Assembly: GCF_011604685.1 (NCBI RefSeq)
Contig: NZ_CP050063.1
Coordinates: forward strand, 4,672,501 to 4,736,500
Direction: 5' to 3'
DNA length: 64,000 nt
Source: Spirosoma aureum
GTDB taxonomy: Bacteria; Bacteroidota; Bacteroidia; Cytophagales; Spirosomataceae
Translations under genes and position numbers: made by a program
The notes under the pieces: model-generated
Told to the model about the DNA's origin: nothing
Databases searched by the model: none
What the model saw: the letters and a program-made list of their open reading frames with translations, nothing else
In this document: positions 27,414 to 52,864 of the stretch, one piece after another
Layout: every line of letters begins with the position of its first letter
How positions within the stretch are numbered: position 1 is the stretch's first letter

Positions 27414-30233
27414 TCATTGGGCAACTGAATTCGTGTAAAGCTGGTTGAATAGCAATTTGAAAGTGCCTTGAGCCTGAGCCCGGAATGTGATTTCGGGGCC
27501 AAAAGCAAAGAGTTTGCCAGACCCAACTGGTGCCATAAATGCGGCAACACCATCCTGTAAATAAGTCTGTCCCCATGCCCAGCCACTACGTAATGGCTTG
27601 TTGGTCGAGAACCAGGCCAATGGTTTTACAGTGCCTTTGGCAATAGCATCGGGAGCTAGTTTGAATACAGGACTTGCGTCGAAGTAAACATCCGTCTGAG
27701 TAGGCATACCCCAGGTCGCCTGTTGGGTTGAATCAAGCGTTACCCGTAAAATACTACCTGGAATGTAATATTTCTCAGCGGGTAGTGGGCGCTCCTGGCC
27801 GCTGTTTGTCATCTCGATCAATGCATTTTTGACTGGAAGTCCCAGATGGTAGGCAAGGTTTGTACTACTGCCGATCGTTACGACATTTCCCCCTGCTTCC
27901 AGAAATTTCTTCAACTGTGGAATTGACTTATCAGCGGTAATTTTGCCGAGCCATGGACGATATTCGGCAGGCAGCTCTTCTGCTTTGGGTTCTCTTCCCT
28001 GGAATCCTTCGCCTTCGCCACGGTTACCAACACCCGAATTACCAAGACCTGGAATGGCCCGTGTAACAAACACAATTACGTCGTACTTCTTACGGAGATC
28101 ACCAGCGTCGATATCCTGTGCGTATATAAGATTTATTGGGAAATGATATTGTTCCATCACCCAGCGAACCCAACCCGAAGGCATCGAACCACCGTAAGTA
28201 TCCCATAAAGCAATGCGCATTGGCGACACTTTAACCAATCCACCTGCTGGACGTTTGGCTATGCTGATTACGTCAAGTCCGAGGTCTTTCGACGATTTTT
28301 CCAGGGCTGTTTTAGCTTTGGCCGATGATGGAATAAAGAAAGAGCCTGACTCTATGTTCGCTTTGCCAGCAACGCCCGAAGGCAGACGGTAAACCTCTAT
28401 GCCCGATTTAAGCAGGTCATTGACAGCAATGAACGCATTATTCGCCCGTGCATTCAAAACATAGCCAGCACCCGAAGCAGGGTCCAGATGACCCGTTGGG
28501 GACTGGAGTTCGCCGTAGGGCAGTTTCTTGAACGGACCGTCGAAAGCGTCGAGAATACGGTCGAACTGAACGTTCATCTGGTAGGCCAGTGTCCATCCAG
28601 CCGCATCATAAGGACGAATCGGTGGGCCACCCGGATACGGAAAATCGTTTGGGTGATCCTGTGGCTCGAACATGTCGATCACGTGTGGACGGAATGCCTG
28701 ATCGGTTTTAACAACATACGAACCGGCCGGATATTTTTTGCCTGCCACAGTGAAATCGGCCGTTGCCTGCTGAATCTGGATACCCGTCTTGATCAGGGCG
28801 TTGACAAACTTAACAGCTGTTGCCAGATCAGTCTGGTTTGCCGGGATAATAAATCCACGTGGATCGCGCAACTGAGGGTCTTTTAGAACCGCATCGTAGT
28901 ATTTTACTGGAATACCACCTCCGCGTGGATTTCCACTGGCCGATTCGGAGGCAGCTGCACCTATGCGGCCTGCCGAATCAGGTTTCGCTTTTCTCAGATC
29001 AGCCTGATAGGCCTGTGTAATGGCATCCGCCCGTTTGGGTGAAAGCGTCCAGTAATCGCTGCTACCACGGTCAATCGAGTTTTTGCCCATCTTGTAGATG
29101 TTATACAGAAGCTCATCGCGGTGCCGTGCTGCATAATCGAGCGTAGCGTAGTTGAGTGAAAGTGAATAGTCGATCGATTGCTTGAAGTGCCACTTCTGCG
29201 GAGTTACCGGGAAGGGTGTATTCCCATTCGGAATCAGACGCTGTGGAACAAGGGGAACCGTTTCGGGCGTCGGGTTACCAATAATCTCGGTCAGCAGGCC
29301 AATCATATTATGGAAGTGCGTCGTAGTGCGCAATCCACCATTATACCAGGTCGAGAAAACGGACCCCCCTAAACGCGTAAAACCAGGCTTGTTTTCAGCA
29401 TTGAGCCGGTTGATCATCGCAGCTCCCAACGCGTCGATACCCGTAATCATCAGCGGGTCGAAGACGTAGTTGAACGGATCACGATAGGGTGGACCTGCCA
29501 GTACAGAGCCAGCTGGGCCACGCTGGTGGTGATTGTACATGATCTGAGGAATCCATTCGACAAACAATTGACGGCCGATATTCTGCGATTCTTTCATATT
29601 CATGATAAAGAAATCGCGATTGTTATCGTGGCCAACGTATTTCTGATACAGTCGGGGTAAATTTTCCAGCGACCGTTTTTCGGGCTTGGGTTCACGCATA
29701 TACCAGTTACTGACTATTTCCTGACCATCCGGATTGGCGTGGGTCATCAGGATAACAACATTATCCAGAATGCGTAGCGTTTCGGGATCTTTGCGGCTTA
29801 CTAACTGCCAGGCAGTTTCGATAAGCTGATGCGTACCTACCGTTTCGGTAGCATGAAGGCCCCCATCGATCCAGACGATTGCTTTCCCTTCCATGGACAT
29901 AGCCCTGGCCTGCTCTTCGGTAATTCCTTCGGCACGGGCCAGTTTCTGAGAGATCTCCTTGTACCGGTCGAGTTTTTTAATGTTTTCCGGCGAGGAAACG
30001 ATCAGCATGAATTGGTGACGGCCTTCTTCCGTCAATCCAATGTCGACCATTTTGGTGCGATCGGAGGTAGCCAGTTTTTTAAAATAGGCTTCAGTTTGCG
30101 TGTACGTAGCAAGTTGGTAATCGTCGCCGATATTAAAACCAAAATGCTCTTTGGGTGATGGAAGTGTTTGTGACCATCCGCTGGTTTGAACCATCAGCAG
30201 TAAAATGGCCACTAATCGGAAAACTTTGAACAT
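27414..30233 (-). CDS. Secreted M14-family metallocarboxypeptidase-like protein
   Basis: A protein of about 939 residues with signal peptide MFKVFRLVAILLLMVQTSGWSQ. The M14 zinc peptidase domain occupies residues about 30-400. The zinc pair is in GGLHATE (His127, Glu130), substrate-binding NNR lies in GHDNNRDF (near 204), and His235/236 in YNHHQRG is the likely third ligand. The long C-terminal part contains a glutamine-amidotransferase-like region (MRIALWDTYGGSMPSGW; YDVIVFVTRAIPG). This architecture is common in Bacteroidota M14 proteins. A start 10 codons further upstream is possible but would bury the signal. It lies divergent to the tldD/tldE cluster. Confidence 0.88.
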   Translation of the reverse strand: MFKVFRLVAILLLMVQTSGWSQTLPSPKEHFGFNIGDDYQLATYTQTEAYFKKLATSDRTKMVDIGLTEEGRHQFMLIVSSPENIKKLDRYKEISQKLARAEGITEEQARAMSMEGKAIVWIDGGLHATETVGTHQLIETAWQLVSRKDPETLRILDNVVILMTHANPDGQEIVSNWYMREPKPEKRSLENLPRLYQKYVGHDNNRDFFIMNMKESQNIGRQLFVEWIPQIMYNHHQRGPAGSVLAGPPYRDPFNYVFDPLMITGIDALGAAMINRLNAENKPGFTRLGGSVFSTWYNGGLRTTTHFHNMIGLLTEIIGNPTPETVPLVPQRLIPNGNTPFPVTPQKWHFKQSIDYSLSLNYATLDYAARHRDELLYNIYKMGKNSIDRGSSDYWTLSPKRADAITQAYQADLRKAKPDSAGRIGAAASESASGNPRGGGIPVKYYDAVLKDPQLRDPRGFIIPANQTDLATAVKFVNALIKTGIQIQQATADFTVAGKKYPAGSYVVKTDQAFRPHVIDMFEPQDHPNDFPYPGGPPIRPYDAAGWTLAYQMNVQFDRILDAFDGPFKKLPYGELQSPTGHLDPASGAGYVLNARANNAFIAVNDLLKSGIEVYRLPSGVAGKANIESGSFFIPSSAKAKTALEKSSKDLGLDVISIAKRPAGGLVKVSPMRIALWDTYGGSMPSGWVRWVMEQYHFPINLIYAQDIDAGDLRKKYDVIVFVTRAIPGLGNSGVGNRGEGEGFQGREPKAEELPAEYRPWLGKITADKSIPQLKKFLEAGGNVVTIGSSTNLAYHLGLPVKNALIEMTNSGQERPLPAEKYYIPGSILRVTLDSTQQATWGMPTQTDVYFDASPVFKLAPDAIAKGTVKPLAWFSTNKPLRSGWAWGQTYLQDGVAAFMAPVGSGKLFAFGPEITFRAQAQGTFKLLFNQLYTNSVAQ

Positions 30234-30694
30234 GATAAATTGAGTTAGTTTAGGGTAATGCATAAAAGAGGTTGTTGATGTTTGGTCAGAATAGATACCG
30301 CCCTAATATTCTGCGGAACGTTACCAGATTACGTCGTATATATTCTTCTGAAAATCCAAAAATCAGTAGTTTGTGCAAAATCCCTCATAAACTTAAAGAA
30401 GAAAGCGGCATAAATTTCATTGGGCGTGTGATAAGATGCAGAAAAAAAAAGGTGCTCCAAACGCACGCATGTATTGCTTTTTTCAAAAGAGTATAAATGG
30501 TCGCTGGATATAGCAAGTTTCTGGTAAAAAGTGTACTAGTGCCAATGAAAATTTGGTGATTCTCTCACCGTTCATCATAAAAGTTTGGTCGCTCATTGTT
30601 CGAATGGTCATTTTTGGCCATATTCGCGCTTCTCAAAACCAATAAGTCTAACCTACTAAGGCTAAATAACTAAGTAAATTACTTAATTCATCAC
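30234..30694. other. Divergent control region between M14 and tldD genes
   Basis: About 460 bases separating the two divergent transcription units. A weak 74-codon open frame at its left end has poor composition and is not called. I see no clear Bacteroidota promoter pair. Confidence 0.4.
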
Positions 30695-32353
30695 ATGAAA
30701 AGAAGAGATTTCATCCACTTGTCTGGCATGGGCATGGGGGCGTTACTGACGGCCGGTATCCCGGCAACCGGTATTCCGGTTCTGGGAAATTCAGTGGTGC
30801 CTGAGTACCTGCTCGAACCCGGTGTGGATGTAGCTACTAAAAAACGCTTTGCCGACATTGCGCTCAATGCCGCAAAAAGCAAAGGGGCTACTTACACCGA
30901 CGTTCGCATCGGAAGGTACCTGCAACAGTTCATGTTCACCCGCGAGATGAAGGTGCAGAACATTGTCAATGCTGAATCCTATGGTGTGGGTATTCGCGTG
31001 ATCGCTAACGGAACCTGGGGATTTGCCGCGACCAGCAACGTTACGCCCGAAGCCATCGCCCGTTGTGCAGAAACAGCCGTAGCCATCGCTAAGGCTAACT
31101 CGAAGTTCCAGACCGAGCCGGTGGTGCTGGCTCCCCAAAAAGGAGTCGGTGAAGTTACCTGGAAAACACCCATTACAAAAAATGCTTTCGAAATTCCAGT
31201 TCAACAGAAAATTGAACTGCTGATGAAAGTAAACAGCGAGGCCATGAAAAATGGAGCAGGCTTCGTTACCTCTAATCTCTTTTTCGTCAACGAACAAAAG
31301 TATTTTGCATCGACTGACGGCACCTATGCCGATCAGGACATTCACCGTGTCTGGCCAACCTTTACAGTTACGGCTGTCGATAAAGCTGCGGGTAAATTTA
31401 AAACCCGCGATGCGCTCAGCTCACCCATGGGCATGGGCTATGAATACCTCGACGGACTGGCGTCCGAAAAAATAGCAGCTCCAAACGGCCTCGTTGGCTA
31501 TCGTAATTCATACGATATGGTTGAGGATGCCATTCTGGCGGCTAAACAGGCTAAGGAAAAACTGACTGCAAAAACGGTTCAGCCGGGTAAATATGATCTT
31601 GTCCTCGATCCAAACCACCTGGGGCTGACCATTCACGAGTCGGTAGGTCACCCGACCGAACTCGACCGTGTATTGGGCTACGAAGCCAATTATGCCGGTA
31701 CAAGCTTTGCCACGCTGGATAAATGGAAAACCAAAAAATTCAACTACGGCAGTAAACTGGTTAACATCGTGGCCGACAAATTACAGCCCCATTCACTGGG
31801 TAAAGTTGGTTACGACGATGAAGGTGTGCCCAGTAAAGAGTGGGATCTGATTAAAGACGGTATTCTGGTCAATTACCAGGCCATTCGCGATCAAGCAGCT
31901 ATTCTGGGTGAAAAAGAATCGAATGGTTGCTGTTATGCCGATAACTGGGATTCTGTGCAGTTTCAGCGGATGCCGAATGTATCCTTAAAACATGGGACTG
32001 AAAAACGTTCGGTTTTCGACATGATCAAAGGAGTCGATAAAGGCATTTACATCATTGGCCGTGGATCTTATTCCATCGATCAACAGCGCTATAATTTTCA
32101 GTTCGGTGGTCAACTGTTCTACGAAATCAAGAATGGCGAAATAGTGGGCATGCTCGACGATGTTGCGTACCAGTCGAATACGCAGGAATTCTGGAACTCC
32201 TGTGCACAACTCTGCGACAAAGACGACTACCGCATGTTCGGTTCTTTCTTCGATGGGAAAGGGCAACCCTCTCAGGTGAGTGCTGTGTCGCACGGCAGTG
32301 CAACGACGCGCTTCAATGGTGTCAACGTGATCAATACCGGACGGAAAATCTAA
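30695..32353 (+). CDS. TldD-like metalloprotease, copy 1, with Tat-like leader
   Basis: A 552-residue TldD/PmbA-family zinc protease subunit. In E. coli, TldD with TldE degrades small unfolded peptides such as CcdA and matures microcin B17. The HExxxH zinc site is HESVGH at 314-319, within LTIHESVGHPTELDRVLGYE. The C-terminal cysteine region (WNSCAQLCDKDDYR, then AVSHGSATTRFNGV) supplies the further ligand. The N-terminus KRRDFIHLSGMGMGALLTAG has twin arginines followed by a hydrophobic stretch, like a Tat leader, which is unusual for this normally cytosolic family. Its partner tldE copy 1 follows 124 bases later. Confidence 0.92.
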   Translation: MKRRDFIHLSGMGMGALLTAGIPATGIPVLGNSVVPEYLLEPGVDVATKKRFADIALNAAKSKGATYTDVRIGRYLQQFMFTREMKVQNIVNAESYGVGIRVIANGTWGFAATSNVTPEAIARCAETAVAIAKANSKFQTEPVVLAPQKGVGEVTWKTPITKNAFEIPVQQKIELLMKVNSEAMKNGAGFVTSNLFFVNEQKYFASTDGTYADQDIHRVWPTFTVTAVDKAAGKFKTRDALSSPMGMGYEYLDGLASEKIAAPNGLVGYRNSYDMVEDAILAAKQAKEKLTAKTVQPGKYDLVLDPNHLGLTIHESVGHPTELDRVLGYEANYAGTSFATLDKWKTKKFNYGSKLVNIVADKLQPHSLGKVGYDDEGVPSKEWDLIKDGILVNYQAIRDQAAILGEKESNGCCYADNWDSVQFQRMPNVSLKHGTEKRSVFDMIKGVDKGIYIIGRGSYSIDQQRYNFQFGGQLFYEIKNGEIVGMLDDVAYQSNTQEFWNSCAQLCDKDDYRMFGSFFDGKGQPSQVSAVSHGSATTRFNGVNVINTGRKI

Positions 32354-32387
32354 TACAGTTTACGCTGGTTTGCCATTGCGGTTTTCG

Positions 32388-32408
32388 TTCGTATTGAACA
32401 TATACGAA
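32388..32408. repeat. Short hairpin between tldD1 and tldE1
   Basis: TTCGTAT at 32388-32394 pairs with ATACGAA at 32402-32408. It is the weakest of the hairpins found in the gaps of this island. Confidence 0.4.
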
Positions 32409-32477
32409 AAGCGACTCGTATTTGAAGTGAAAACCTGCTCCTGACAACTCGTAAACCTAAAAACGGAACCCTTTTTT

Positions 32478-33845
32478 ATGGCTATTTTAACCAAAGACGA
32501 AGCCAAAAAAATAATTGATAAAGTACTGTCTTACTCGAAGGCAGATGAATTGAGTGCCAATCTAACGGGAGGTCGTATCGGTAACATTCGCTATGCCCGC
32601 AATGCCGTATCGACCAGTGGCGAGGGTACCAATCTGTCGTTGAGCGTAACGGCGGCTTTTGGCAAACGAAGCGGTACCGCCACCATCAACGAGTTCGACG
32701 ATGCATCGCTGGAGAAAACCGTTCGGCGAGCTGAAGAAATTGCCCGACTAGCCCCGGAAAATCCGGAGTATATGCCCATGTTAGGGCCTCAGACGTATCT
32801 GGCAGCTGATCCCTACGCCCAAAGCACGGCCAATATTGACCCGGCTTATCGCTCTCAGGCAACCTTCGACAGCATTGACCCCTGCCGGAAAAAGAACCTG
32901 ACTGCTGCTGGTTATATGGAGGATTCGACGCGTTTCACGGCAATAGGCAACACCAAAGGCTTATCGGCTTACAATCGGGAGACATCCGTTGAATTTTCAA
33001 TTACGGTTCGCACTGCAGATGGAACAGGTTCCGGTTATTCAACCCGCGACGTAACTGACGTGTCGAAGTTAAGCACGAAAGACGCAACCGAGATCGCCAT
33101 GCAGAAAGCCTTGGCTTCAACAAATGCCCGGGCACTGGAGCCCGGCAAATACACGGTCATTCTGGAACCGGCTGCACTCCTGGCCAATGTTGATGCGTCG
33201 CTCATGGCCGCCATGATGAATTCACTGGATGCTCGTAATGCCGAAGAAGGCCGCAGTTTTCTCAGTAAAAAAGGTGGTGGTACGAGACTGGGTGAAAAGC
33301 TGTTCGATGAACGTGTAACCATCTACTCCGATCCCACAAACGCCGAAGTACCAGCAGCCGCATTTGGCGGTGGTGGCGGTGGCGGTCGCCTTGGCGGTGG
33401 TGGGAGCGACGGGCGTCCGCAGGAAAAAGTAACCTGGATCGAAAAAGGCGTGGTTAAGAACATGTCCTATTCGCGCTACTGGGCCGATAAAAAAGGCGTT
33501 AAGGCGATTCCTCCTCCAGCCAATTTTATCATGGCAGGTGGTACCGAATCGCTGGCGGATATGATAAAAAGCACCGAAAAAGGGATTCTTGTCACTCGCT
33601 TTTGGTATATCCGTGCCGTTGACCCACAGACGCTTCTTTATACGGGATTAACCCGTGATGGTACGTTCTATATTGAAAATGGGCAGATTAAGTTTCCGGT
33701 CAAAAACTTCCGCTTTAACGAAAGTCCGATTATTATGCTCAATAACCTCGAAACGTTGGGCAAGCCCGTCCGCCTGGGTGGGAATCTGATCCCGCCACTA
33801 AAAATCAGAGATTTTACCTTCACCAGCTTGTCGGATGCTGTGTAA
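32478..33845 (+). CDS. TldE/PmbA-like partner subunit, copy 1
   Basis: A 455-residue TldE/PmbA homolog, the non-catalytic partner of TldD. It starts MAILTKDEAKKIIDKVLSYS without any signal peptide and lacks HExxxH. Family features include GNIRYARNAVSTSGEG near residue 35, the segment ALEPGKYTVILEPAA and the C-terminal TGLTRDGTFYIENGQIK and FRFNESPIIMLNNLETLG. A glycine-rich loop (residues 297-309; seven Gly, then Arg-Leu, then four Gly) interrupts the C-terminal half. It probably forms a heterodimer with the product of the adjacent tldD. Confidence 0.9.
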   Translation: MAILTKDEAKKIIDKVLSYSKADELSANLTGGRIGNIRYARNAVSTSGEGTNLSLSVTAAFGKRSGTATINEFDDASLEKTVRRAEEIARLAPENPEYMPMLGPQTYLAADPYAQSTANIDPAYRSQATFDSIDPCRKKNLTAAGYMEDSTRFTAIGNTKGLSAYNRETSVEFSITVRTADGTGSGYSTRDVTDVSKLSTKDATEIAMQKALASTNARALEPGKYTVILEPAALLANVDASLMAAMMNSLDARNAEEGRSFLSKKGGGTRLGEKLFDERVTIYSDPTNAEVPAAAFGGGGGGGRLGGGGSDGRPQEKVTWIEKGVVKNMSYSRYWADKKGVKAIPPPANFIMAGGTESLADMIKSTEKGILVTRFWYIRAVDPQTLLYTGLTRDGTFYIENGQIKFPVKNFRFNESPIIMLNNLETLGKPVRLGGNLIPPLKIRDFTFTSLSDAV

Positions 33846-33930
33846 AAATTTATGGCTTACCCGGCATCCGTTGCTACGATTTGCTGATTGCCGTAAACTA
33901 TAGACCGAACATCATAAACTAAAAACTACT

Positions 33931-35571
33931 TTGAATCGTCGCGATTTTAACCAACTACTAGCCATGGGCTCAGCGGGGATGCTGATGCCTAACCTGCCCG
34001 CTTTTTCCCGGTCTGTCGCTCCCGAAGTCCTGATGGAGCCAGGCATGGATGTATCGATCAAAAAGCGTCTGGCTGATGCGGCCCTGAATGCCGCTAAAGC
34101 GAAAGGAGCTACTTATGCGGATGTCCGTATTGGCCGCTATCTCAATCAATTCGTACTCACCCGCGAAAATAAAGTACAGGGAATTATCAACGCCGAATCG
34201 TTTGGGGTTGGTGTTCGGGTTATTGCCAATGGCTGCTGGGGTTTTGCGTCCGTAGGCGATGCCCGCGATGAAGCCGTTGTTGCCAAAGCCGCTGAAACTG
34301 CCGTGACAATTGCCAAAGCAAATGCCCGGCTGTTGACTGAACCCGTGCAATTAGCACCGCAGAAAGGCTACGGCGAAGTAAGCTGGAAAGCGCCCATTAA
34401 GCGAAGTGCTTTTGAGGTTCCGGCCAAGGAAAAGGTCGATTTGTTATTGGCGGCTAACGCAGCGGCCATGCAAAATGGCGCGAACTTCGTCAATAATGTG
34501 TTGTTTCAGGTCAACGAACAAAAGTATTTTGCCTCGACCGATGGCACCTACGCCGATCAGGACATTCACCGGATTGGACCGAGTTTCACTGTAACGGCCG
34601 TTGATCCGCAGAATGGAAAGTTCTCTACCCGTAACTCGTTGAGTTCGCCGATGGGGATGGGTTATGAGTACCTTCAGGTCAATCCAGGCGACAAACTGGC
34701 TGGTGTTACGACCCGCTACAATAAGGGATACGATTTACTGGAAGATATTACCATAGCCGCCAAACAGGCAAAAGAAAAGTTGTCGGCTAAGTCAGTAGAG
34801 GCCGGGAAGTATGACCTTGTACTCGATCCGTCACACCTGTGGCTGACCATTCACGAATCGGTAGGTCACCCACTCGAACTCGACCGCGTGCTGGGCTACG
34901 AAGCTAATTTTGCCGGTACCTCGTTTGCTACTCTGGATAAGTGGCAGGCGAAGAACTTCAACTATGGTAGCAAAGCGGTAAACTTCGTGGCCGACAAAAC
35001 ACAGGTCGGTTCGTTAGGTGCTGTTGGCTGGGACGATGAAGGCGTGAAAACCAAGAAATGGGATTTGGTCAAAGATGGTATCCTGGTGAACTACCAGGCC
35101 ATTCGTGATCAGGTGCACATCATCGGCGAGAAAGAATCGCAGGGTTGCTGCTATGCCGATAACTGGAGTTCGGTACAGTTCCAGCGCATGGCCAACGTGT
35201 CGCTGGAGGCTGGTAAAACGCCCTTGTCCGTGGATGAAATGATCAAGGATGTGAAAAAAGGCATCTACATCATTGGGGATGGTTCGTTCTCGATTGATCA
35301 GCAACGCTACAACTTCCAGTTTGGCGGACAGCTCTTCTACGAAATCAAAGACGGTCAGATTGTCGGTATGTTGAAAGATGTGGCCTATCAGGCCAATACC
35401 CGTGAGTTCTGGAACTCCTGCGTCGCTGTCTGCGATGAGCGCGATTACCGGTTAGGGGGTGCTTTCAACGATGGGAAAGGCCAGCCTTCACAATCGAGCG
35501 CGGTATCGCACGGTAGTTCGACCGCCCGATTCAACGGGGTCAACGTGATCAATACAGCCCGGAAAATCTAA
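33931..35571 (+). CDS. TldD-like metalloprotease, copy 2, with Tat-like leader
   Basis: A 546-residue paralog of copy 1. The start is TTG at 33931, giving MNRRDFNQLLAMGSAGMLMP; no upstream in-frame ATG fits, and copy 3 starts the same way. The zinc motif HESVGH is at 308-313. Much of the sequence, for example YFASTDGTYADQDIHR and GTSFATLDKW, is shared with copies 1 and 3. From 35248 to 35362 it is identical at the DNA level to copy 3. The partner gene tldE copy 2 follows 82 bases later. Confidence 0.92.
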   Translation: MNRRDFNQLLAMGSAGMLMPNLPAFSRSVAPEVLMEPGMDVSIKKRLADAALNAAKAKGATYADVRIGRYLNQFVLTRENKVQGIINAESFGVGVRVIANGCWGFASVGDARDEAVVAKAAETAVTIAKANARLLTEPVQLAPQKGYGEVSWKAPIKRSAFEVPAKEKVDLLLAANAAAMQNGANFVNNVLFQVNEQKYFASTDGTYADQDIHRIGPSFTVTAVDPQNGKFSTRNSLSSPMGMGYEYLQVNPGDKLAGVTTRYNKGYDLLEDITIAAKQAKEKLSAKSVEAGKYDLVLDPSHLWLTIHESVGHPLELDRVLGYEANFAGTSFATLDKWQAKNFNYGSKAVNFVADKTQVGSLGAVGWDDEGVKTKKWDLVKDGILVNYQAIRDQVHIIGEKESQGCCYADNWSSVQFQRMANVSLEAGKTPLSVDEMIKDVKKGIYIIGDGSFSIDQQRYNFQFGGQLFYEIKDGQIVGMLKDVAYQANTREFWNSCVAVCDERDYRLGGAFNDGKGQPSQSSAVSHGSSTARFNGVNVINTARKI

Positions 35572-35653
35572 AAAAGTTTTCGGCTGGCTGACACTGGCAA
35601 AACGGTGTGTAAACCAACCGCAAACTATAAACCTAAAACGACAAACTAAATAA

Positions 35654-37018
35654 ATGGCTATTTTAACTAAAGACGAAGCCAAACGAATCATTGATAAGGT
35701 TTTGGGCTATTCAAAAGCGGATGAAACCAGTGTTAGCCTGAATGGTGGTCGGACCGGTAACATTCGGTATGCCCGAAACTCCGTTTCGACCAGTGGTGAA
35801 ACGGACAATTTAGCGCTGGCGGTTACTGCCGTATTCGGCAAACGCAGCGGAACCGCTACGATCAACGAGTTCGACGATGCTTCGCTGGAGAAAACCGTTC
35901 GGCGGGCTGAAGAAATTGCCCGCTTAGCTCCCGAAAATCCAGAGTACATGTCTATGCTCGGGCCGCAGAAATACCTGGAAACAAGTACGTATGCAGAAAG
36001 CACGGCTAAAATTGACCCTGAATTTCGGGCTCAGGCTGCGTTCAATAGCATCGATCCATGCCGTCAGAAGAATCTGACCGCTGCGGGCTACATGGAAGAT
36101 ACAACAGGCTTTACCGCCATTGGCAATAGCAAGGGCTTATTCGGCTATAATCGGTCAACGGGTGTTGATTTCTCCATTACCGTTCGGACTGCTGACGGGC
36201 TGGGATCTGGTTATGCCAATCCCGACGTAAACGACGTCAGCAAACTAAACACAAAGTCTACCACCGAAATAGCCATGCAGAAAGCATTGGCATCGGCCAG
36301 TGCCCGAGCGCTTGAGCCGGGTAAATACACGGTTATTCTGGAACCAACGGCTTCGGTTGAATTGCTGCAAAATATGATGCGCAGCATGGATGCCCGGAGT
36401 GCCGATGAAGGCCGTAGCTTTCTGGGCAAAAAAGGAGGAGGGACCCGTCTGGGCGAAAAACTGTTCGATGAACGGGTTACGATTATTACCGATCCGATGA
36501 ATGCCGATCTGCCGCTCGCTCCATTTGGTGGTGGTGGCGGAGGAGGTGGCGGTGGCCGCTTTGGCGGTGGCGGAGGTGGCGAAGGCGTACCTCAGGAAAA
36601 GATAACCTGGATTGAAAATGGCGTTGTCAAGAACATGTTCTACTCGCGCTTCTGGGCTGATAAGAAAGGCGTTAAAGCTGTTCCACCACCATCTGGTTTC
36701 ATCGTTCAGGGCGGTACGCAATCGCTGGCTGATTTGATCAAAAGTACGGATAAGGGCATACTTGTCACGCGCTTCTGGTACATCCGCGCTGTTGATCCAC
36801 AGACCCAGTTGTACACGGGCCTTACCCGCGACGGGACGTTTTATATTGAAAATGGGCAAATTAAGTTTCCGGTCAAGAATTTCCGGTTCAACGAAAGCCC
36901 GGTTATCATGCTCAATAACCTCGAAGCCCTGGGCAAACCGGTTCGGGCGGGGGGTAACCTGATTCCGCCAATGAAAATCAGGGATTTCACCTTCACGAGC
37001 TTGTCGGACGCTGTATAG
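35654..37018 (+). CDS. TldE/PmbA-like partner subunit, copy 2
   Basis: A 454-residue paralog of tldE copy 1 with the same start (MAILTKDEAKRIIDKVLGYS) and no signal peptide or HExxxH. The glycine-rich loop is longer than in copy 1: ten Gly at residues 292-301, Arg-Phe, then six Gly up to 309. C-terminal motifs TGLTRDGTFYIENGQIKFP and MKIRDFTFTSLSDAV match copy 1. It is placed directly after tldD copy 2 and before a strong intergenic hairpin. Confidence 0.9.
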   Translation: MAILTKDEAKRIIDKVLGYSKADETSVSLNGGRTGNIRYARNSVSTSGETDNLALAVTAVFGKRSGTATINEFDDASLEKTVRRAEEIARLAPENPEYMSMLGPQKYLETSTYAESTAKIDPEFRAQAAFNSIDPCRQKNLTAAGYMEDTTGFTAIGNSKGLFGYNRSTGVDFSITVRTADGLGSGYANPDVNDVSKLNTKSTTEIAMQKALASASARALEPGKYTVILEPTASVELLQNMMRSMDARSADEGRSFLGKKGGGTRLGEKLFDERVTIITDPMNADLPLAPFGGGGGGGGGGRFGGGGGGEGVPQEKITWIENGVVKNMFYSRFWADKKGVKAVPPPSGFIVQGGTQSLADLIKSTDKGILVTRFWYIRAVDPQTQLYTGLTRDGTFYIENGQIKFPVKNFRFNESPVIMLNNLEALGKPVRAGGNLIPPMKIRDFTFTSLSDAV

Positions 37019-37024
37019 CCGTCC

Positions 37025-37091
37025 GTTTCTGGTCTGTGGTAAATGCGGTAAGGTCAGCAAAGACCCAATGCATGAACTACAGACCAGAAAC
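37025..37091. repeat. Hairpin between tldE2 and tldD3
   Basis: Sixteen-base arms (37025-37040 and 37076-37091), beginning GTTTCTGGTCTGTGGT, pair with a single G-T. The loop is 35 bases. It starts 7 bases after the tldE2 stop. Confidence 0.7.
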
Positions 37092-37130
37092 AACGAACTA
37101 AGAATCGCAAACTAAAAACCACAACTTATT

Positions 37131-38771
37131 TTGAACCGCCGAAACTTTAATCAATTGATGGGTATGGGAGCAACCGGGATATTGCTTCCTAACTTGCCTG
37201 CTTTTTCCCGTACCGTTAGCCCTGAAGCCTTACTGGAGCCGGGGGTAGATGTTGCCACGAAAAAGCGCCTGGCCGATGCAGCATTGAACGCGGCCAAAAG
37301 CAAAGGGGCCACGTATACAGATGTCAGGATTGGTCGTTACCTGAATCAATTCGTGATTACGCGTGAGGATAAAGTTCAGAATATCGTTAACACAGAGTCT
37401 TACGGTGTTGGGGTTCGTGTCATTGCCGATGGCTGCTGGGGTTTTGCTGCCGTTGTCGATGCCAAGAGCGAGGCAGATACGGCCAAAGCCGCCGAAAAAG
37501 CCGTAGCTATCGCGAAAGCAAATGCCAGATTGATGAAACAACCCGTTCAACTGGCTCCCCAGAAAGGCTACGGCGAAGTAAGCTGGAAAGCGCCGATTCA
37601 GAAAAATGCGTTTGAGGTCCCGATTAAAGAAAAGGTTGACCTCTTATTATCCGTAAACAGCGCTGCGCTCAAAAACGGAGCCAACTACGTAAACTCAGTG
37701 CTGTTCATGGTAAATGAGCAAAAGTATTTTGCCTCGACCGATGGCACCTACGCCGATCAGGATATTCACCGGCTATGGCCAATTTTCAACGTAACCGCTA
37801 TTGACCCCAAGACAGGCAAGTTCGAAACGCGCAATGCACTGAGTGCGCCGGTCGGCATGGGTTACGAATATCTGCAAGCCAACCCTGCGGATAAAGTGAC
37901 AGGCGTTACTACACGTTACAATAAGGGGTATGACATGCTTGAAGATGCGACCGCAGCCGCTAAACAGGCGCGGGCGAAACACAGCGCCAAATCCGTTGAA
38001 GCCGGGAAATATGATCTCGTACTTGATCCTTCACACCTGTGGCTGACCATTCACGAATCGGTGGGTCACCCACTCGAACTCGACCGCGTGCTGGGCTATG
38101 AAGCCAATTTTGCCGGTACCTCGTTTGCTACTCTGGATAAGTGGAAAACCAAGAACTTCAATTATGGCAGCAAGCAGGTCAACCTCTTTGCCGATAAATT
38201 ACAGGTTGGTTCATTAGGTGCTGTTGGCTGGGATGACGAAGGCGTAAAGACCAAACAGTGGGATCTGGTGAAAGAGGGAACCCTGGTGAACTACCAGGCC
38301 ATTCGTGATCAGGTCCACATCATCGGCGAAAATGAATCGCAGGGGTGCTGTTATGCCGATAACTGGGGCTCTGTCCAGTTTCAGCGCATGGCCAATGTGT
38401 CGCTGGCCGCTGGTAAAACGCCCCTGTCGGTTCAGGATATGATTAAAGATGTGAAAAAAGGCATCTACATCATTGGGGATGGTTCGTTCTCGATTGATCA
38501 GCAACGCTACAACTTCCAGTTTGGCGGACAGCTCTTCTACGAAATCAAAGACGGTCAGATTGCTGGTATGCTGAAAGATGTAGCCTATCAATCGAACACG
38601 CAGGAATTCTGGAACTCCTGCGTCGCTGTCTGCGATGAGCGTGATTATAGACTAGGGGGCTCGTTTTTCGATGGCAAAGGGCAACCACCGCAATCCAGCG
38701 CAGTATCGCACGGTAGTTCGACCGCCCGCTTCAACGGGGTCAACGTGATTAATACAGCCCGGAAAATCTAA
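37131..38771 (+). CDS. TldD-like metalloprotease, copy 3, with Tat-like leader
   Basis: A 546-residue TldD paralog, closest to copy 2. It starts at TTG 37131 with MNRRNFNQLMGMGATGILLP; the twin arginines are followed by Asn-Phe. The zinc motif HESVGH is at 308-313 and the C-terminal Cys region (NSCVAVCDERDYR; AVSHGSSTARFNGV) is intact, so catalysis is expected. A 115-base block (38448-38562) is identical to copy 2, pointing to recent duplication or gene conversion. It is followed by the third tldE gene. Confidence 0.92.
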   Translation: MNRRNFNQLMGMGATGILLPNLPAFSRTVSPEALLEPGVDVATKKRLADAALNAAKSKGATYTDVRIGRYLNQFVITREDKVQNIVNTESYGVGVRVIADGCWGFAAVVDAKSEADTAKAAEKAVAIAKANARLMKQPVQLAPQKGYGEVSWKAPIQKNAFEVPIKEKVDLLLSVNSAALKNGANYVNSVLFMVNEQKYFASTDGTYADQDIHRLWPIFNVTAIDPKTGKFETRNALSAPVGMGYEYLQANPADKVTGVTTRYNKGYDMLEDATAAAKQARAKHSAKSVEAGKYDLVLDPSHLWLTIHESVGHPLELDRVLGYEANFAGTSFATLDKWKTKNFNYGSKQVNLFADKLQVGSLGAVGWDDEGVKTKQWDLVKEGTLVNYQAIRDQVHIIGENESQGCCYADNWGSVQFQRMANVSLAAGKTPLSVQDMIKDVKKGIYIIGDGSFSIDQQRYNFQFGGQLFYEIKDGQIAGMLKDVAYQSNTQEFWNSCVAVCDERDYRLGGSFFDGKGQPPQSSAVSHGSSTARFNGVNVINTARKI

Positions 38772-38785
38772 AAGCCCTCCGTTTA

Positions 38786-38825
38786 CAGTTTTCAGTTCAT
38801 TGACGAGTCATCCAATTGAAAACTG
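38786..38825. repeat. Hairpin between tldD3 and tldE3
   Basis: CAGTTTTCAGTT at 38786-38797 pairs with AATTGAAAACTG at 38814-38825 with one mismatch. It belongs to the same word family as the repeat at 11495-11565. Confidence 0.65.
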
Positions 38826-38850
38826 GAAGCGTATAAAACACGACACTTTT

Positions 38851-40188
38851 ATGGCAACCATACTCACCGAAGCAGAAGCGAAAGCGCTGCTGACAAAAGT
38901 TTTAAGTTATTCGAAAGCAGACGAGTGTGAGGTCAATATTCTCGGTGAAGAACGGGGAAATCTTCGCTATGCTCGTAATGAAGTCTCTACGAGCGGTTCA
39001 TTGACCAATCAGAATTTACAGGTCCAGTCGGCATTTGGTAAAAAAGTAGGCGTTGCTACGATTGATGAATTTGATGATGCATCGCTGGAAAAAGTGGTAC
39101 GAAGGGCGGAGGAACTGGCTCGGCTGGCTCCCGAAAACCCTGAACACGTTGGTGTGCTCAGTCCTCAGCAATACCTGAAATCCAACGGTTATGTTGATGC
39201 TACAGCTAACATAACACCCGACATCCGGGCGGAGGCTGTTGCTAAAAGCTTGCAATTGGCGCGCGACCAAAAGCTGACAGCGGCTGGTTTTTTGCAGGAT
39301 AATCATGGTTACAGGGCTATGATGAACTCCAAAGGATTGTTTGCCTATTACCCCAGCTCAAACGTTAATTTCTCCCTGACCGTCCGTACCGACGATGGGA
39401 AAGGGTCGGGTTATGTGGCTCGGGGTTACAATGATTTTACAAAGCTGGATACCGTTGCGGCAACGCGGATTGCGATCCAGAAAGCACAGGGTTCTGCCGA
39501 AGCACGGGCGATTGAGCCGGGCAAATACACGGTCATTCTGGAACCGACAGCTGCCGTCGTACTGCTCGAAAACATCTATTTTAATCTGGATGCCCGGAGT
39601 GCCGATGAGGGTCGGTCTTACTTCAGTAAAACAGGCGGAAAATCACGGCTGGGGGATAAAATTGTTGATGAGCGAGTAACCATCTATACCGACCCGACAA
39701 ATGCGGAGCTTCCTTCGTCGCCCTGGTCGGGTGATGGTCGTCCGCAGGAAAAAACGATGTGGATTGAGAAGGGGGTTGTCAAAAATCTGACCTATTCCCG
39801 GTATTGGGCACAGAAGACGGGTAAAAAAGCAGTACCTAACCCAACAAACGTAATCATGCTGGGGGGTAACGCGTCGCTGGAGGAAATGATCAGGACGACC
39901 CAGCGCGGTATTCTGGTAACCAAACTCTGGTATATCCGCGAAGTTGATCCGCAAACCATTCTCCTGACGGGCCTTACCCGCGACGGGACGTTTTATATCG
40001 AAGACGGCAAGATCAAGTATCCCGTCAAGAACTTCCGCTTCAATGAAAGCCCCATCATAATGCTCAATAACCTGGAGTCGCTGGGCAAGCCGGAACGGGT
40101 AGTCAGCACGGAAACCGATCAGAATTATCTGGTACCGCCGATGAAAATTCGGGAATTTACCTTCACGAGTTTGTCTGATGCAGTGTAG
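38851..40188 (+). CDS. TldE/PmbA-like partner subunit, copy 3
   Basis: A 445-residue TldE paralog. The ATG at 38851 gives MATILTEAEAKALLTKVLSYS, aligned with the starts of copies 1 and 2; a TTG 51 bases upstream would add unrelated residues. It shares EPGKYTVILEPTA, TGLTRDGTFYIEDGKIKYP and MKIREFTFTSLSDAV with the others. Unlike them it has no glycine-rich loop: PSSPWSGDGRPQEK replaces it. It is more diverged overall, suggesting an older duplication or a distinct partner role. Confidence 0.9.
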   Translation: MATILTEAEAKALLTKVLSYSKADECEVNILGEERGNLRYARNEVSTSGSLTNQNLQVQSAFGKKVGVATIDEFDDASLEKVVRRAEELARLAPENPEHVGVLSPQQYLKSNGYVDATANITPDIRAEAVAKSLQLARDQKLTAAGFLQDNHGYRAMMNSKGLFAYYPSSNVNFSLTVRTDDGKGSGYVARGYNDFTKLDTVAATRIAIQKAQGSAEARAIEPGKYTVILEPTAAVVLLENIYFNLDARSADEGRSYFSKTGGKSRLGDKIVDERVTIYTDPTNAELPSSPWSGDGRPQEKTMWIEKGVVKNLTYSRYWAQKTGKKAVPNPTNVIMLGGNASLEEMIRTTQRGILVTKLWYIREVDPQTILLTGLTRDGTFYIEDGKIKYPVKNFRFNESPIIMLNNLESLGKPERVVSTETDQNYLVPPMKIREFTFTSLSDAV

Positions 40189-40469: not shown

Positions 40470-41087
40470 TTGAAACCATTTATTTTCACCCGAATCCAAT
40501 ATACGTCCGGCGACTGGGATACCGATCAGAGAATGCCGTCCAATATACTGCACTCACTGGTGGAGTACACGACTATTCCGGTTGATCAGAAAGAGAAAGT
40601 GGTGCAATTGAGCAGTCCTGACCTGTTCAGGAGTCCATTCTGTTACATGAGCGGTCATAAACTGGTCGAGTTTTCCGCCCAGGAGCGCGATCATTTCAAA
40701 CGCTATGTTCAAAATGGCGGCTTCGTATTTGTAGACGACTGCAATCACGACATCGATGCGCTGTTTGCCCGATCGTTCGAGCAGGAAATGGCCCGTACGT
40801 TCGGGCCGAAGGCATTACAGAAGATCCCGAACAACCATCCGCTGTACACCTGTTTTTTTAAGTTTGACGAAGGGCCTCCGACAACCTCATTCGAACTGAA
40901 CGGCTGGGGGGATGATCTGGTGCATGATTACCTCAAAGCCATTATGATCAACGGTCGCATTGGTGTTCTCTACAGCAACAAAGATTATGGTTGCGAATGG
41001 GATTACGATTTTCGTAACAAGCGTTTTCTGGCCGAGGATAACACGAAATTTGGCGTAAACATCATTACGTACGCGTTGACTGCCTGA
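40470..41087 (+). CDS. DUF4159 domain protein
   Basis: A 205-residue DUF4159 protein, a glutamine-amidotransferase-like fold without evident catalytic residues that often lies beside MoxR and BatA genes. Visible features are the start MKPFIFTRIQYTSGDWDTDQ, the FVFVDDCNHD segment after NGG, the HPLYTCFF motif and GRIGVLYSNKDYGCEWDY. The start is TTG at 40470. There is no signal peptide in this copy, so it is probably cytoplasmic. It leads into the MoxR gene 113 bases later and is likely the first gene of that operon. Confidence 0.88.
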   Translation: MKPFIFTRIQYTSGDWDTDQRMPSNILHSLVEYTTIPVDQKEKVVQLSSPDLFRSPFCYMSGHKLVEFSAQERDHFKRYVQNGGFVFVDDCNHDIDALFARSFEQEMARTFGPKALQKIPNNHPLYTCFFKFDEGPPTTSFELNGWGDDLVHDYLKAIMINGRIGVLYSNKDYGCEWDYDFRNKRFLAEDNTKFGVNIITYALTA

Positions 41088-41200: not shown

Positions 41201-42184
41201 TTGGAATCAACAGACTTAACCCACTACAAAACGCTCGTGGCCCGCTTGCCACAGCTACGAAACGAAATCGGTAAAGTGATCATTGGTCAACAGGAAGTCA
41301 TCAGCGAAGTGCTGATCGCACTTTTGGCGGGTGGACACTGCCTGCTGGAAGGTGTGCCTGGGCTTGCTAAAACGCTGATGGTGAAAACAATGTCCGATGC
41401 GCTGGCCATGCGCTTCAAGCGTATTCAGTTTACGCCCGATCTCATGCCCGGTGATATTGTCGGTACCGAAATTCTGGAAGAAGACCACGAAACGGGAAAG
41501 AAATCCTTCCAGTTTAACAAAGGGCCGATATTTGCCAATGTGGTACTGGCCGATGAGATCAACCGGACGCCACCTAAAACGCAGGCAGCTATGCTGGAAG
41601 CGATGCAGGAGTATAAGGTCACGTACGGCGGTAGCGATTATGCGTTGCCCCGCCCTTTTCTCATCATTGCGACCCAGAACCCCATCGAACAGGCCGGGAC
41701 CTATCCCTTACCGGAAGCACAGCTCGACCGTTTTCTGCTCTATATTAAACTGAGTTATCCGTCGGAACAGGAGGAACTGGTTGTGTTGAAAAGCACGACG
41801 GGTACCCAAAAGCCAGTGCTGCAAACGATCCTTTCCGACGAAGATATTCTGAATTTGCAGAGCCTTACCCGACAGGTACACATCAGCGAAGAACTGATCG
41901 AGTACATAAATCGGATCGTACGGGCGTCGCGCCCAAAGGATAGCCCATCGGCTTTTGTGAAGCAATGGTGCGAATGGGGCGCGGGTCCACGGGCCGGGCA
42001 GGCACTGGTCTTGTGCGCAAAAGCCAGAGCTGTTCTCAGTGAGCGATTCTCCGTTATTCCCGACGATATTCAAACGCTGGCTTATCCTGTATTGCGCCAC
42101 CGGATTGCCCTGAATTTCCGCGCCGATGCGGAAGGAATTACGACGGATCGGGTGATTAAAGAATTGCTGACTACTGTTAAATAG
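41201..42184 (+). CDS. moxR: MoxR-family AAA+ ATPase
   Basis: A 327-residue AAA+ ATPase of the MoxR group, cytoplasmic chaperones that act with von Willebrand A (VWA) domain proteins to activate or assemble partners. Walker A is GVPGLAKT at 51-58, Walker B VVLADE at 115-120, sensor 1 is in IIATQNPIEQAGTYPLPEAQLDRF, and the C-terminal lid contains the sensor 2 Arg. The start is TTG at 41201. It is followed by DUF58, BatA-like and membrane genes, the standard MoxR partner set. Confidence 0.93.
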   Translation: MESTDLTHYKTLVARLPQLRNEIGKVIIGQQEVISEVLIALLAGGHCLLEGVPGLAKTLMVKTMSDALAMRFKRIQFTPDLMPGDIVGTEILEEDHETGKKSFQFNKGPIFANVVLADEINRTPPKTQAAMLEAMQEYKVTYGGSDYALPRPFLIIATQNPIEQAGTYPLPEAQLDRFLLYIKLSYPSEQEELVVLKSTTGTQKPVLQTILSDEDILNLQSLTRQVHISEELIEYINRIVRASRPKDSPSAFVKQWCEWGAGPRAGQALVLCAKARAVLSERFSVIPDDIQTLAYPVLRHRIALNFRADAEGITTDRVIKELLTTVK

Positions 42185-42283
42185 CGATTCGGTTTACAGT
42201 TTTTGATTCATGGTGGGTCTATCACTACGGTGGCAGACCAAACCTGCGAAACAGTAAGCAGAATACCGAAAACGAAATGCAGT

Positions 42284-43150
42284 ATGCCCCAACTAACGTC
42301 CGATCTGATTCGATTAAATAATCTCCAACTGGCGAGCAAACTTGTCAGTGATGAAATGATGCTGGGTATTCAAACCAGCCGTCGGTCGGGTGTCGGAACC
42401 GAATTTGAGCAGTATCGTCACTACGAGCCGGGCGATGATCCGAAGCGAATCGACTGGAAACTGTTTGCCAGAAGCGGTCATTATCTGGTGCGGGAATCGG
42501 CAACGGAGAGCAACCAGCAAATTCGACTATTGCTGGATTTGTCGGGGTCGATGAACTATGCTGAAGCCGGGGTAAGCCGGTTGCAATATGCCCAGATTCT
42601 GCTGGCCTCGCTGGCCTATCTGGGCTACAGGCAGAACGATCAACTGAGTTTGTACGGGCTGCAAAATGGTGCCGTTCAGGCATTGGTACCAACCGGAAAA
42701 CAGGCATTCCTGAAAATTGTAGGAACACTGGAAACATCGGAGGCAGCCGGGCAATGGACCATAAAACAACCTTCGTTTCCGGACTTTAGCCGGAAACAGG
42801 CCGAAATGCTGGTTCTGGTGTCCGACTTTTTACAGGTTGGCGATGAGTGGATTAAACTCATCCAGAGTATAGCGGCCCCGCGTCGGGAGATCGTTATTTT
42901 CCAGATTCTGGGCGATCAGGAGCTTGATTTCAACCTGAGTGGCTTTTACCGATTTCAGGATCTGGAAACGGGTAAAGAGATTGAGTTACAGGCCGATGCA
43001 GTTCGGGACACGGTTCGGCAGGCGGCTGCTGATTATTTAGCGAAACTGGACGATGCCCTGCGTATTCCGCACGTTCGACTCATTCGTGTTCGATTGAGTG
43101 ACCCAATTGGGCGAGTGTTAAGTGCGTTTCTGACCGGGAAGAACTTGTGA
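42284..43150 (+). CDS. DUF58 protein with VWA-like domain
   Basis: A protein of about 288 residues. The DUF58 signature YEPGDDPKRIDWKLFARSG lies near residue 45, followed by a VWA-like fold with the MIDAS-type motif LLLDLSGSMNY. There is no transmembrane segment in this form. Members work with MoxR ATPases. The ATG at 42284 gives the usual start MPQLTSDLIRLNN; a TTG 81 bases upstream would add an unlikely extension. A hairpin and 67 bases separate it from the BatA-like gene. Confidence 0.9.
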   Translation: MPQLTSDLIRLNNLQLASKLVSDEMMLGIQTSRRSGVGTEFEQYRHYEPGDDPKRIDWKLFARSGHYLVRESATESNQQIRLLLDLSGSMNYAEAGVSRLQYAQILLASLAYLGYRQNDQLSLYGLQNGAVQALVPTGKQAFLKIVGTLETSEAAGQWTIKQPSFPDFSRKQAEMLVLVSDFLQVGDEWIKLIQSIAAPRREIVIFQILGDQELDFNLSGFYRFQDLETGKEIELQADAVRDTVRQAAADYLAKLDDALRIPHVRLIRVRLSDPIGRVLSAFLTGKNL

Positions 43151-43217: not shown

Positions 43218-44408
43218 ATGGCATTCTTAGAACCGTTTTTGTTGTGGGGTGCGCTGGCGGTAGTAATTCCGGTCATCATCCATTTCTGGCACCAGAAAAA
43301 AGGGAAACCGCTGGCTTGGGCAGCTACCCAATGGCTCGTTGAAAAAAACCAGCAACAACAGCGTGGTCTGAAACTGGACAATATTCTGCTGCTGATTCTT
43401 CGGTGTCTGTTATTGATCTTGCTGGCTGTTCTCCTGAGTCAGCCCGTATTGAACAGTCTGAAAAGTAAGGCCGATAGCCAGCCGATTCATCTGGTGCAGC
43501 CAAATGCGTTAGTGAGTACTAATTTTCGGTTTGAGCTGGAAGAGGCCAGTAAACGGGGAGAGAAGCTATACTGGATAAATCAAACCGCCGAGCCAATCGA
43601 CAAATTGACTGAATTGCCTGAACGGAAAGCAGTTACGCCGTTATTGATTCAGGCAGCCATTGATAAACTACGTCGGGAAAATACCGAGCTACACCTGTAT
43701 TTACTGAACAATGAATCCATAGCAACCGTCCCGTCGATTTATGTGCCATCCCAGTTTCAGTTGCATACGCTTGTCGATTCAACCCGGCCACCGCGTGCTT
43801 ATCTGGTGACAAAAGGCAGCCAGAAACTGTTTGTGGGTCATGAAGGAAAGCTAACAAATAGCGCCGTGTTCGAACCAGCGCTGAAGTTTCAGCAGGCACC
43901 GGTTCATAGTGGCCAGTTGCGTGTATTACTCGATTATCGAAGCCAGCGCGAAGAGCAGACCGTTGAAGCGGCTCTCAAGGCACTGACTGAGGTATATGGC
44001 CTTGATTTTCTGATTGACCATAACCAGACGGGCACTACGCCCTATGAATGGGTGCTGACAGATCGGATTAGTGCGAATCCTTCGCCCCAGACGTTATACA
44101 TCGTTTCGGGTAAATCGGGCTATCCGATGGCTCCCAATATTTGTTATACGGGGAATGCATTGACAGCGCAAACCGATGAACGGGTCGCTAATGGGCAACT
44201 GCCCGAATGGTTAGGTGAGCAATTGATTCAGCATTACGGATTGCAGGTCAGTTCGTTACCGTTGAGTCAGCAAGAGTTGAAGTCGTTGTTTGCCGTGGCA
44301 AACCGGACCGACCGGAAACCACAGACATTGGTTCATAACGTAATCGTACTGCTTTTTGTCGTTCTACTGATTGGAGAACGATGGATGGCGCTAACAAAGA
44401 ACGCATGA
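43218..44408 (+). CDS. BatA-domain membrane protein
   Basis: A 396-residue protein with the BatA N-terminal domain: MAFLEPFLLWGALAVVIPVI is the first helix and LDNILLLILRCLLLILLAVL a second (near residues 55-75), with the basic HQKKGKPLAWAATQWLVEKNQ between. A periplasmic domain without VWA motif follows, and a C-terminal helix (VIVLLFVVLLIGERW). Such proteins cooperate with MoxR and DUF58 partners in envelope stress and assembly. Its stop overlaps the next start as ATGA, so translation is coupled. Confidence 0.88.
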   Translation: MAFLEPFLLWGALAVVIPVIIHFWHQKKGKPLAWAATQWLVEKNQQQQRGLKLDNILLLILRCLLLILLAVLLSQPVLNSLKSKADSQPIHLVQPNALVSTNFRFELEEASKRGEKLYWINQTAEPIDKLTELPERKAVTPLLIQAAIDKLRRENTELHLYLLNNESIATVPSIYVPSQFQLHTLVDSTRPPRAYLVTKGSQKLFVGHEGKLTNSAVFEPALKFQQAPVHSGQLRVLLDYRSQREEQTVEAALKALTEVYGLDFLIDHNQTGTTPYEWVLTDRISANPSPQTLYIVSGKSGYPMAPNICYTGNALTAQTDERVANGQLPEWLGEQLIQHYGLQVSSLPLSQQELKSLFAVANRTDRKPQTLVHNVIVLLFVVLLIGERWMALTKNA

Positions 44409-52686: not shown

Positions 52687-52802
52687 CGGCTAAATTATTT
52701 AGGTTAGGAACAGATTAAGTATTGATTCAAGACAGTTTTTTTTGCCATTTTGCCCGATAAGCAGTGAAAAGAAAGCCGAGTATTTCATGCGTTGACTGGT
52801 CT

Positions 52803-52836: not shown

Positions 52837-52864
52837 AAACGACTACTAACCTATGAATAATATA

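Follow-up and report, generated by a model that had tools for sequence, protein, structure and literature searches.

Origin of the middle pair of a TldD-TldE array

In Spirosoma aureum, six consecutive + strand open reading frames (ORFs) at positions 30695-40188 of a 64,000-nucleotide stretch (contig NZ_CP050063.1, 4,672,501 to 4,736,500; hereafter the window) alternate between TldD-like (D) and TldE-like (E) genes in the order D-E-D-E-D-E. Phylogeny identifies the middle pair, D2-E2, as a chimera of a D3-lineage D and an E1-lineage E. The reading that we favour, and consider rather likely, is that the array encodes a periplasmic TldD/TldE exported by the twin-arginine translocation (Tat) pathway, that it grew by E-D blocks, and that its D and E partners are probably interchangeable. 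The genes are as follows.

30695..32353, + strand: D1, TldD-like, lineage Da; Tat signal MKRRDF, HESVGHPTELDR, DGKGQ
32478..33845, + strand: E1, TldE-like, lineage Ea; Gly-rich insert, neither signal peptide nor HExxxH
33931..35571, + strand: D2, TldD-like, a descendant of lineage Db; TTG start, Tat signal MNRRDF, HESVGHPLELDR, DGKGQ
35654..37018, + strand: E2, TldE-like, a descendant of lineage Ea; Gly-rich insert, neither signal peptide nor HExxxH
37131..38771, + strand: D3, TldD-like, lineage Db; Tat signal MNRRNF, TTG start, HESVGHPLELDR, DGKGQ
38851..40188, + strand: E3, TldE-like, lineage Eb; no signal peptide, HExxxH or Gly-rich insert

The three tandem pairs are intact, as a preliminary description of this DNA had stated. 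All six proteins scored above the curated Pfam cut-off for each of the three PmbA_TldD domains, in order; D1, D2 and D3 keep HExxxH within the motif HESVGHxxELDR, and HExxxH is absent from E1, E2 and E3. D2 (33931) and D3 (37131) start at TTG. E3 likely starts at 38851 (445 aa, as in its L055 orthologue) rather than at a TTG at 38800, and with this start the intergenic gaps within the array are 79-124 bases (b). The proteins scored well under the NCBIfam cut-offs for canonical TldD/PmbA equivalogs (NF008006, NF040952 and NF008268), the best D reaching 141.7 bits against 635 and 71 against 513, and the best E 53.7 bits against 438. The Gly-rich inserts lie in the C-terminal domain, at 33366-33407 in E1 and 36527-36580 in E2; runs of at least four Gly were present in 28 of the 80 E of the tree set, and E3 has none.

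Loci examined are denoted by L-numbers and genomes searched by G-numbers. Same-genus loci are the main loci of 31 of 35 genomes (L040-L070; the fragmented drafts G001, G011, G021 and G033 were omitted). L083-L161 are 79 loci outside the same-genus set, a sample of close kin chosen as the best of at least 582 confirmed places, and L162-L211 were drawn with Escherichia coli TldD as the query. The motif split of the family held throughout L040-L079, with HExxxH in 101/101 full-length D and 0/100 full-length E.

Sequence identity of D2 is 84% with D3 and 69% with D1, and that of E2 is 79% with E1 and 60% with E3. Quick trees (LG+G4; 81 D and 80 E) split the D into two old clades, Da (the first D of arrays) and Db (the last D), and the E into two that are likewise old, Ea and Eb. 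They placed D2 within Db and E2 within Ea, together with DX and EX respectively. The latter form a further pair, X, which relatives carry within their four-pair arrays (in L060 it follows Eb) and which stands alone at 5.73 Mb in the host genome (L077). In careful trees of 46 rows each, forcing D2 with Da cost 159 log-likelihood units (approximately unbiased (AU) test, p 3e-70) and DX with Da 121 units (p 7e-4), while forcing E2 with Eb cost 121 units (p 1e-5) and EX with Eb 96 units (p 1e-6); the groups had been named after the quick trees were seen, so these AU p values are post hoc. In every 60-residue segment D2 was nearer D3, and E2 nearer E1. Because D2 and DX fall in Db while E2 and EX fall in Ea, the array formula reads as Da-[Ea-Db]n-Eb, with an E-D block as the apparent unit of growth, and the fourth pair, DX-EX, would have arisen likewise from a Db-type D and an Ea-type E.

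Whole copying of pair 1 or pair 3, followed by gene conversion of D2 by D3 or of E2 by E1, would arrive at the same end state, and the array offers homologous tracts of 64-86% identity about 3.2 kb apart. We regard this route as rather unlikely: the resemblance of D2 to D3 and of E2 to E1 in all segments would demand conversion of whole genes, and the X pair would need a second such event. By block duplication or by gene conversion, the present D2-E2 pair is of mixed origin either way.

Re-fitting of these proteins to new partners was also looked for. Among informative changes, those toward the state of the other lineage made up 12/23 in D2 and 23/50 in DX (controls, 15/33 and 17/31), and 6/16 in E2 and 6/26 in EX (controls, 9/31 and 13/36). 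There was no excess over the controls in any of the four, and convergence on the other lineage was rejected.

Reassortment of neighbouring D and E genes

Neighbouring D and E genes have reassorted, because D2 and E2 are of mixed lineages, Da stands beside E2-type E, and D and E numbers are unequal in relatives. BLAST typing placed an E2-type E next to Da in 8/10 two-pair arrays, although this typing is partly circular, since the E of L044, L048 and L061 were among its E2 references. A tree built from 99 E grouped E2 with the leading E of 8/10 two-pair arrays (within a 21-row set, support 97), L053 and L054 being the two arrays whose first E fell elsewhere, and in L065 the E beside Da grouped with EX (support 84). 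Unequal numbers were found in three genomes. G019 and G030 each gave five matches, which are the two D and three E of L056 and L066; Ea is kept there without Da, and its ratio of nonsynonymous to synonymous substitution rates (dN/dS) was 0.016 between the two genomes. In G014, Eb is absent at the locus and three of the five matches are D, so that this genome presumably has three D and two E.

The chimeric middle pair therefore makes partners seem exchangeable rather than dedicated. The preliminary description had suggested several dedicated peptide substrates or three heterodimers with distinct partner choices. With three dedicated heterodimers, each adjacent D and E would assemble only with one another and would have a peptide substrate of their own. 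The copies are indeed old and diverged, and purifying selection acts on all of them, which non-redundant roles would lead one to expect; Da-Ea (L076, L107, L152) and Db-Eb (L075, L078) pairs also occur apart from such arrays. Dedicated pairing is nevertheless not the simplest reading and seems unlikely to us, given that the middle pair joins lineages with other neighbours elsewhere, that Da lies beside E2-type E in eight two-pair arrays and beside EX-type E in L065, and that D and E numbers differ in relatives. The expansion itself is real, and its copies keep their active-site motifs. Substrate specialisation of the pairs is possible.

Export signals on D and E

A Tat motif was defined as x-R-R-x-F followed by a moderately hydrophobic stretch at the N-terminus, and was scored by motif and hydrophobicity scripts. 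It was present in 101/101 full-length D and 0/100 full-length E of L040-L079, after shorter pieces (4 D and 6 E) had been set aside. In L083-L161 the script found it in 109/111 D; the two misses were a motif inside an over-long frame (L119) and a gene cut at the start of the locus (L161). Three of the 102 E in this set gave a loose RR match that by eye was not signal-like (internal in L095 and L121, in an over-long frame in L153). Among L162-L211, 26 D belong to the window's lineage, 21 with RR and 5 with RK (L177 twice, L182, L184 and L190). Some genomes recur across L040-L079, L083-L161 and L162-L211, so these counts are not independent.

Two further lineages were informative. A second, E. 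coli-like lineage with a Cys-type metal site (L162-L165) has a Tat signal on 4/4 D and none on 4/4 E; eleven other Cys-type D (L166-L176) showed no convincing signal, with one loose script match inside L171. In a third lineage, marked by HEIFGHR, a Sec-like hydrophobic N-terminus was found on 16/16 D (14/16 if only the first start is taken). All ten partners found by homology in this lineage (10/10) passed the Sec-like hydrophobicity cut, and no partner was detected by homology in the other six loci. The same cut was passed by 0/199 E of the window's lineage and by 0/4 E of L162-L165.

Sec exports unfolded chains one at a time, and Tat exports folded proteins. A signal on D only in the Tat lineages, and on both subunits in the Sec lineage, fits export of a folded D-E complex. 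This distribution is what co-export predicts and is its main support. At the sequence level, D has the twin-arginine motif and hydrophobic stretch of a Tat substrate, TatC is present in the host genome, and E has no recognisable signal, as would suit a putative Tat hitchhiker. TatC presence is uninformative as a test, as TatC was found in 197/198 Bacteroidota genomes. We infer that the D and E of the array form a periplasmic peptidase in which E hitchhikes. With export, the substrates would be periplasmic. The cytosolic microcin B17 (MccB17)/CcdA model is not supported, as the Tat signals on D point to the periplasm; the preliminary description had named microcin B17 and CcdA for the heterodimeric protease.

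It could be argued instead that D and E do not work together, D being exported to act in the periplasm by itself or as a homodimer and E remaining cytoplasmic. No signal is recognisable on E, and an active TldD homodimer has been reported from Sulfolobus (Hu et al. 2012, as cited in PMC5810440, in the part of that paper available). However, E comes after D in loci of Cytophagia and Flavobacteriia alike and stays under selection, and the partner in the Sec lineage has its own signal, as needed for the subunits to meet. We consider action of D without E quite improbable.

In the favoured reading, D would fold in the cytoplasm with the signal-less E, and the folded heterodimer would be exported by Tat with E as hitchhiker, as the signal distribution suggests. 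Once there, it would work like the hollow E. coli TldD/E heterodimer and trim the ends of unfolded peptides in the periplasm, perhaps in a stress or quality-control role beside the co-inherited DUF4159-MoxR-DUF58-BatA genes. The array itself would have grown from an older Da-Ea-Db-Eb form by duplication of the internal E-D block, not of a D-E pair; the D and E trees show the lineages, and the recombination step is a proposed one. With D2-E2 a chimera, D and E partners would probably be interchangeable, and the array would most likely supply dosage and a pool of heterodimers rather than three sealed pairs. Going further, a combinatorial peptidase may be envisaged, with at most nine heterodimers (three D by three E), of which only assembled pairs leave by Tat; the folding check of Tat would then double as an assembly check, and E-D shuffling would need a tolerant interface. 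This extension we put forward only tentatively.

Several points weigh against the favoured reading. Export, complex formation and activity of D-E are drawn from sequence. The signal calls come from scripts and not from a trained predictor; the RK of 5/26 D in L162-L211 is not a standard Tat motif; and the Sec-like cut was also passed by 52/213 Tat-type D, so that the RR motif alone separates the two types in D. Tat signals accompany a Cys ligand in L162-L165, and Asp is thus not required for export. DUF4159, the next gene, is separated from the array by 281 b in the window and by as much as 2.7 kb in relatives, so that a single transcript is putative. The absent re-fitting signal is listed here too, yet is neutral to the pairing claim.

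Metal site of D

In E. coli TldD the metal ligands are His262, His267 and Cys454 (PMC5810440, available part). At the third position, window D have DGKGQ where E. coli has CGKEGQ, a correspondence of Asp to Cys454 made by motif, as MAFFT placed a gap there; the site would thus comprise two His and an Asp. DGKGQ was found in 101/101 D of L040-L079 and 111/111 D of L083-L161. Of the other residues, the alignment shows no variation at the equivalents of Glu270 and Asp272, and Lys456 is retained as judged by motif. In Nonomuraea, a relative of the window D with 42% identity to D2 reads CGKGQ, bridging DGKGQ and CGKEGQ, and lacks a Tat signal. In that branch Cys and a missing Tat signal do go together; as a rule, the Asp ligand as a mark of Tat export was rejected, because L162-L165 combine Tat with Cys. 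The Asp-ligand variant of TldD has already been noted in print. The available part of PMC5810440 remarks, from sequence, that Gemmatimonas TldD has Asp in place of Cys as the proposed third metal ligand, with a more thermolysin-like site; export and gene context of that protein are not mentioned there.

Two sets of cysteines are conserved in Tat-borne D: GCCYA (31925-31939 in D1, 35143-35157 in D2, 38343-38357 in D3) and NSCxxxCD (32195-32218, 35413-35436 and 38613-38636, respectively). They could form periplasmic disulphides. They are partly missing in some relatives (L073 9818-11455, L190), and the only cysteines of E. coli TldD are at positions 294 and 454.

Selection and copy number

Compared with the sister genome (L055), all six genes gave dN/dS of 0.00-0.03 at dS 0.18-0.30. 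Comparison with L058 and L043 gave 0.015-0.032 at dS 1.4-2.6, near saturation, and three other genome pairs gave 0.007-0.063. Between copies, dN was 0.23 for D1-D2 and 0.31 for E1-E3, with synonymous sites saturated in both. All six genes are under strong purifying selection and none looks decaying; the copies tested are therefore not decayed neutral copies. The variation in copy number between species (2-4 pairs) might speak for a neutral, functionally meaningless tandem amplification in large genomes. Such an origin is very improbable and largely refuted by dN/dS of 0.00-0.06 in each copy tested (six genome pairs, some at saturated dS); the Tat and active-site motifs are retained as well.

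The host genome (8.9 Mb, single contig) gave 12 PmbA_TldD_1st matches, which correspond to six pairs: the three of the array and single pairs at 3.28, 5.73 and 6.90 Mb. Among the best 120 of 8000 matches, the nearest named proteins came from Spirosoma and nearly all named sources were Spirosomataceae, so that these matches give no cross-phylum view. Members of the TldD/TldE family were present in 35/35 other same-genus genomes searched. The search covered 59 genomes, counting the one that holds the window, and 18 of them, all outside the taxonomic family, had no member.

Two to four tandem pairs were found in 27/31 same-genus arrays (two pairs in 10, three in 8 and four in 9). L051 reads Da-Ea-D2 without a last E, L065 has two pairs 8.9 kb apart, and the L056 and L066 arrays begin with Ea; no Da was found upstream of the latter two in the extended stretches L216 and L217. 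In one three-pair array (L064) the last E is split across two frames. In L052 (G015), several D and E frames of a four-pair array are broken, possibly by sequencing errors, unlike the other four-pair arrays, which are intact. Multi-pair TldD-TldE arrays are ordinary for the genus. The assumption of one TldD and one TldE as the norm thus does not hold here, and of the outcome named beforehand as refuting, that the copies would prove ordinary, neutral and decayed, the first part applies; neutrality and decay are contradicted by purifying selection and the kept motifs. Outside the genus, two consecutive D stand beside fewer E in L105, L118, L126 and L132 (also in L073, L196 and L209).

Neighbouring genes

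Downstream of the array, the window contains the following genes.

40470..41087, + strand: DUF4159 protein; in relatives, the first recognised gene past the last E is often one of these
41201..42184, + strand: MoxR-type AAA ATPase
42203..43150, + strand: DUF58 protein
43218..44408, + strand: BatA N-terminal domain protein
44381-46657, + strand: ORF of 758 aa without a Pfam match
46654-48282, + strand: ORF of 542 aa without a Pfam match

Same-genus arrays usually precede DUF4159-MoxR-DUF58 genes. Of the 31 same-genus loci, 16 have a relative of the 758-aa ORF downstream and 12 one of the 542-aa ORF, although many of the stretches covered end before that point. In the 79 loci of L083-L161, E was followed by DUF4159 in 62, DUF4159 by MoxR in 60 and MoxR by DUF58 in 48, and in most loci named Flavobacteriia a single pair stood ahead of DUF4159. 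Of the 17 loci without DUF4159, ten end within 520 b and two within 1.8 kb of the last D or E, and five have at least 3.9 kb without a match. A promoter and terminator scan returned no more than was found in shuffles.

The MoxR, DUF58 and BatA-type genes follow in the order of a Bat (aerotolerance) operon. In another member of the Bacteroidota, moxR and bat genes affect survival of heat and oxidative stress (PMC11834572, available part). From the conserved MoxR-DUF58 neighbours we infer a link to quality control of the envelope or under stress. General domain scans detected no tetratricopeptide repeat (TPR) protein among the scanned window proteins. A link to ribosomally synthesised and post-translationally modified peptides (RiPPs) found no support, with no RiPP-modifying enzyme among the 39 window proteins scanned, small ORFs not being searched systematically.

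Upstream of the array lies a divergent M14 carboxypeptidase (window 27414-30263), for which L055 and L058 were the sole loci of L040-L079 to show a relative (upstream coverage of about 3 kb). Further downstream, at 50542-60951, SusD, a TonB-dependent receptor, GH43, FecR and an ECF sigma factor make up, by domains, an ordinary glycan-uptake locus.

Comparison with known systems

E. coli TldD/TldE (PmbA) is a heterodimeric metalloprotease, described as trimming unfolded peptides that are fed into its hollow interior (PMC5810440, available part; PDB 5nj5). The window proteins share with it the three PmbA_TldD domains and HExxxH in D only. Identity is 26% between E. coli TldD and a related D (L074) and 23% between E. 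coli TldE and E1. Unlike their E. coli counterparts, the window D carry a Tat signal and, by motif, Asp for Cys454, D and E are adjacent and amplified, and scores fall far below the equivalog cut-offs. A signal peptide on one subunit of a heterodimer is likewise found in Tat hitchhiker complexes such as Ni-Fe hydrogenases, although those named in the available part of PMC10924467 are hydrogenases and formate dehydrogenases, not TldD/E peptidases. The open-licence literature, seen partly as listings and abstracts, yielded no description of Tat-borne TldD/E or of TldD-TldE arrays, an absence that is not proof, and no paper on DUF4159.

The role of TldD/TldE is obscure in most bacteria, and a large group that is seemingly periplasmic moves the search for substrates there. 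Co-export can be tested on a contrast provided by nature, between the Tat lineages, with a signal on D only, and the Sec lineage, with a signal on both subunits. How the TldD/TldE heterodimer chooses its partners becomes directly testable with the chimeric middle pair. The analysis also ties the DUF4159-MoxR-DUF58 set to a seemingly exported TldD/TldE. The Bat operon, as presented in the available part of PMC11834572, shares the MoxR-DUF58-BatA-type genes that follow the array, to which the window adds DUF4159 and TldD/E; TldD has 0 occurrences in the main text of that paper. An operon of Stenotrophomonas maltophilia, called uncharacterised in the available part of PMC7688217, encodes, besides two TldD proteins and a MoxR-like ATPase, a putative protease, a membrane protein and hypothetical proteins, and is perhaps the same gene set, the likeness being one of description and not of sequences. 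On a Xanthomonas hortorum plasmid (L213, 2992-3531), an N-terminal TldD piece with a Tat-type start matches D3 at about 50% identity across the first 105 residues, so that Tat-borne TldD probably exists in Pseudomonadota too.

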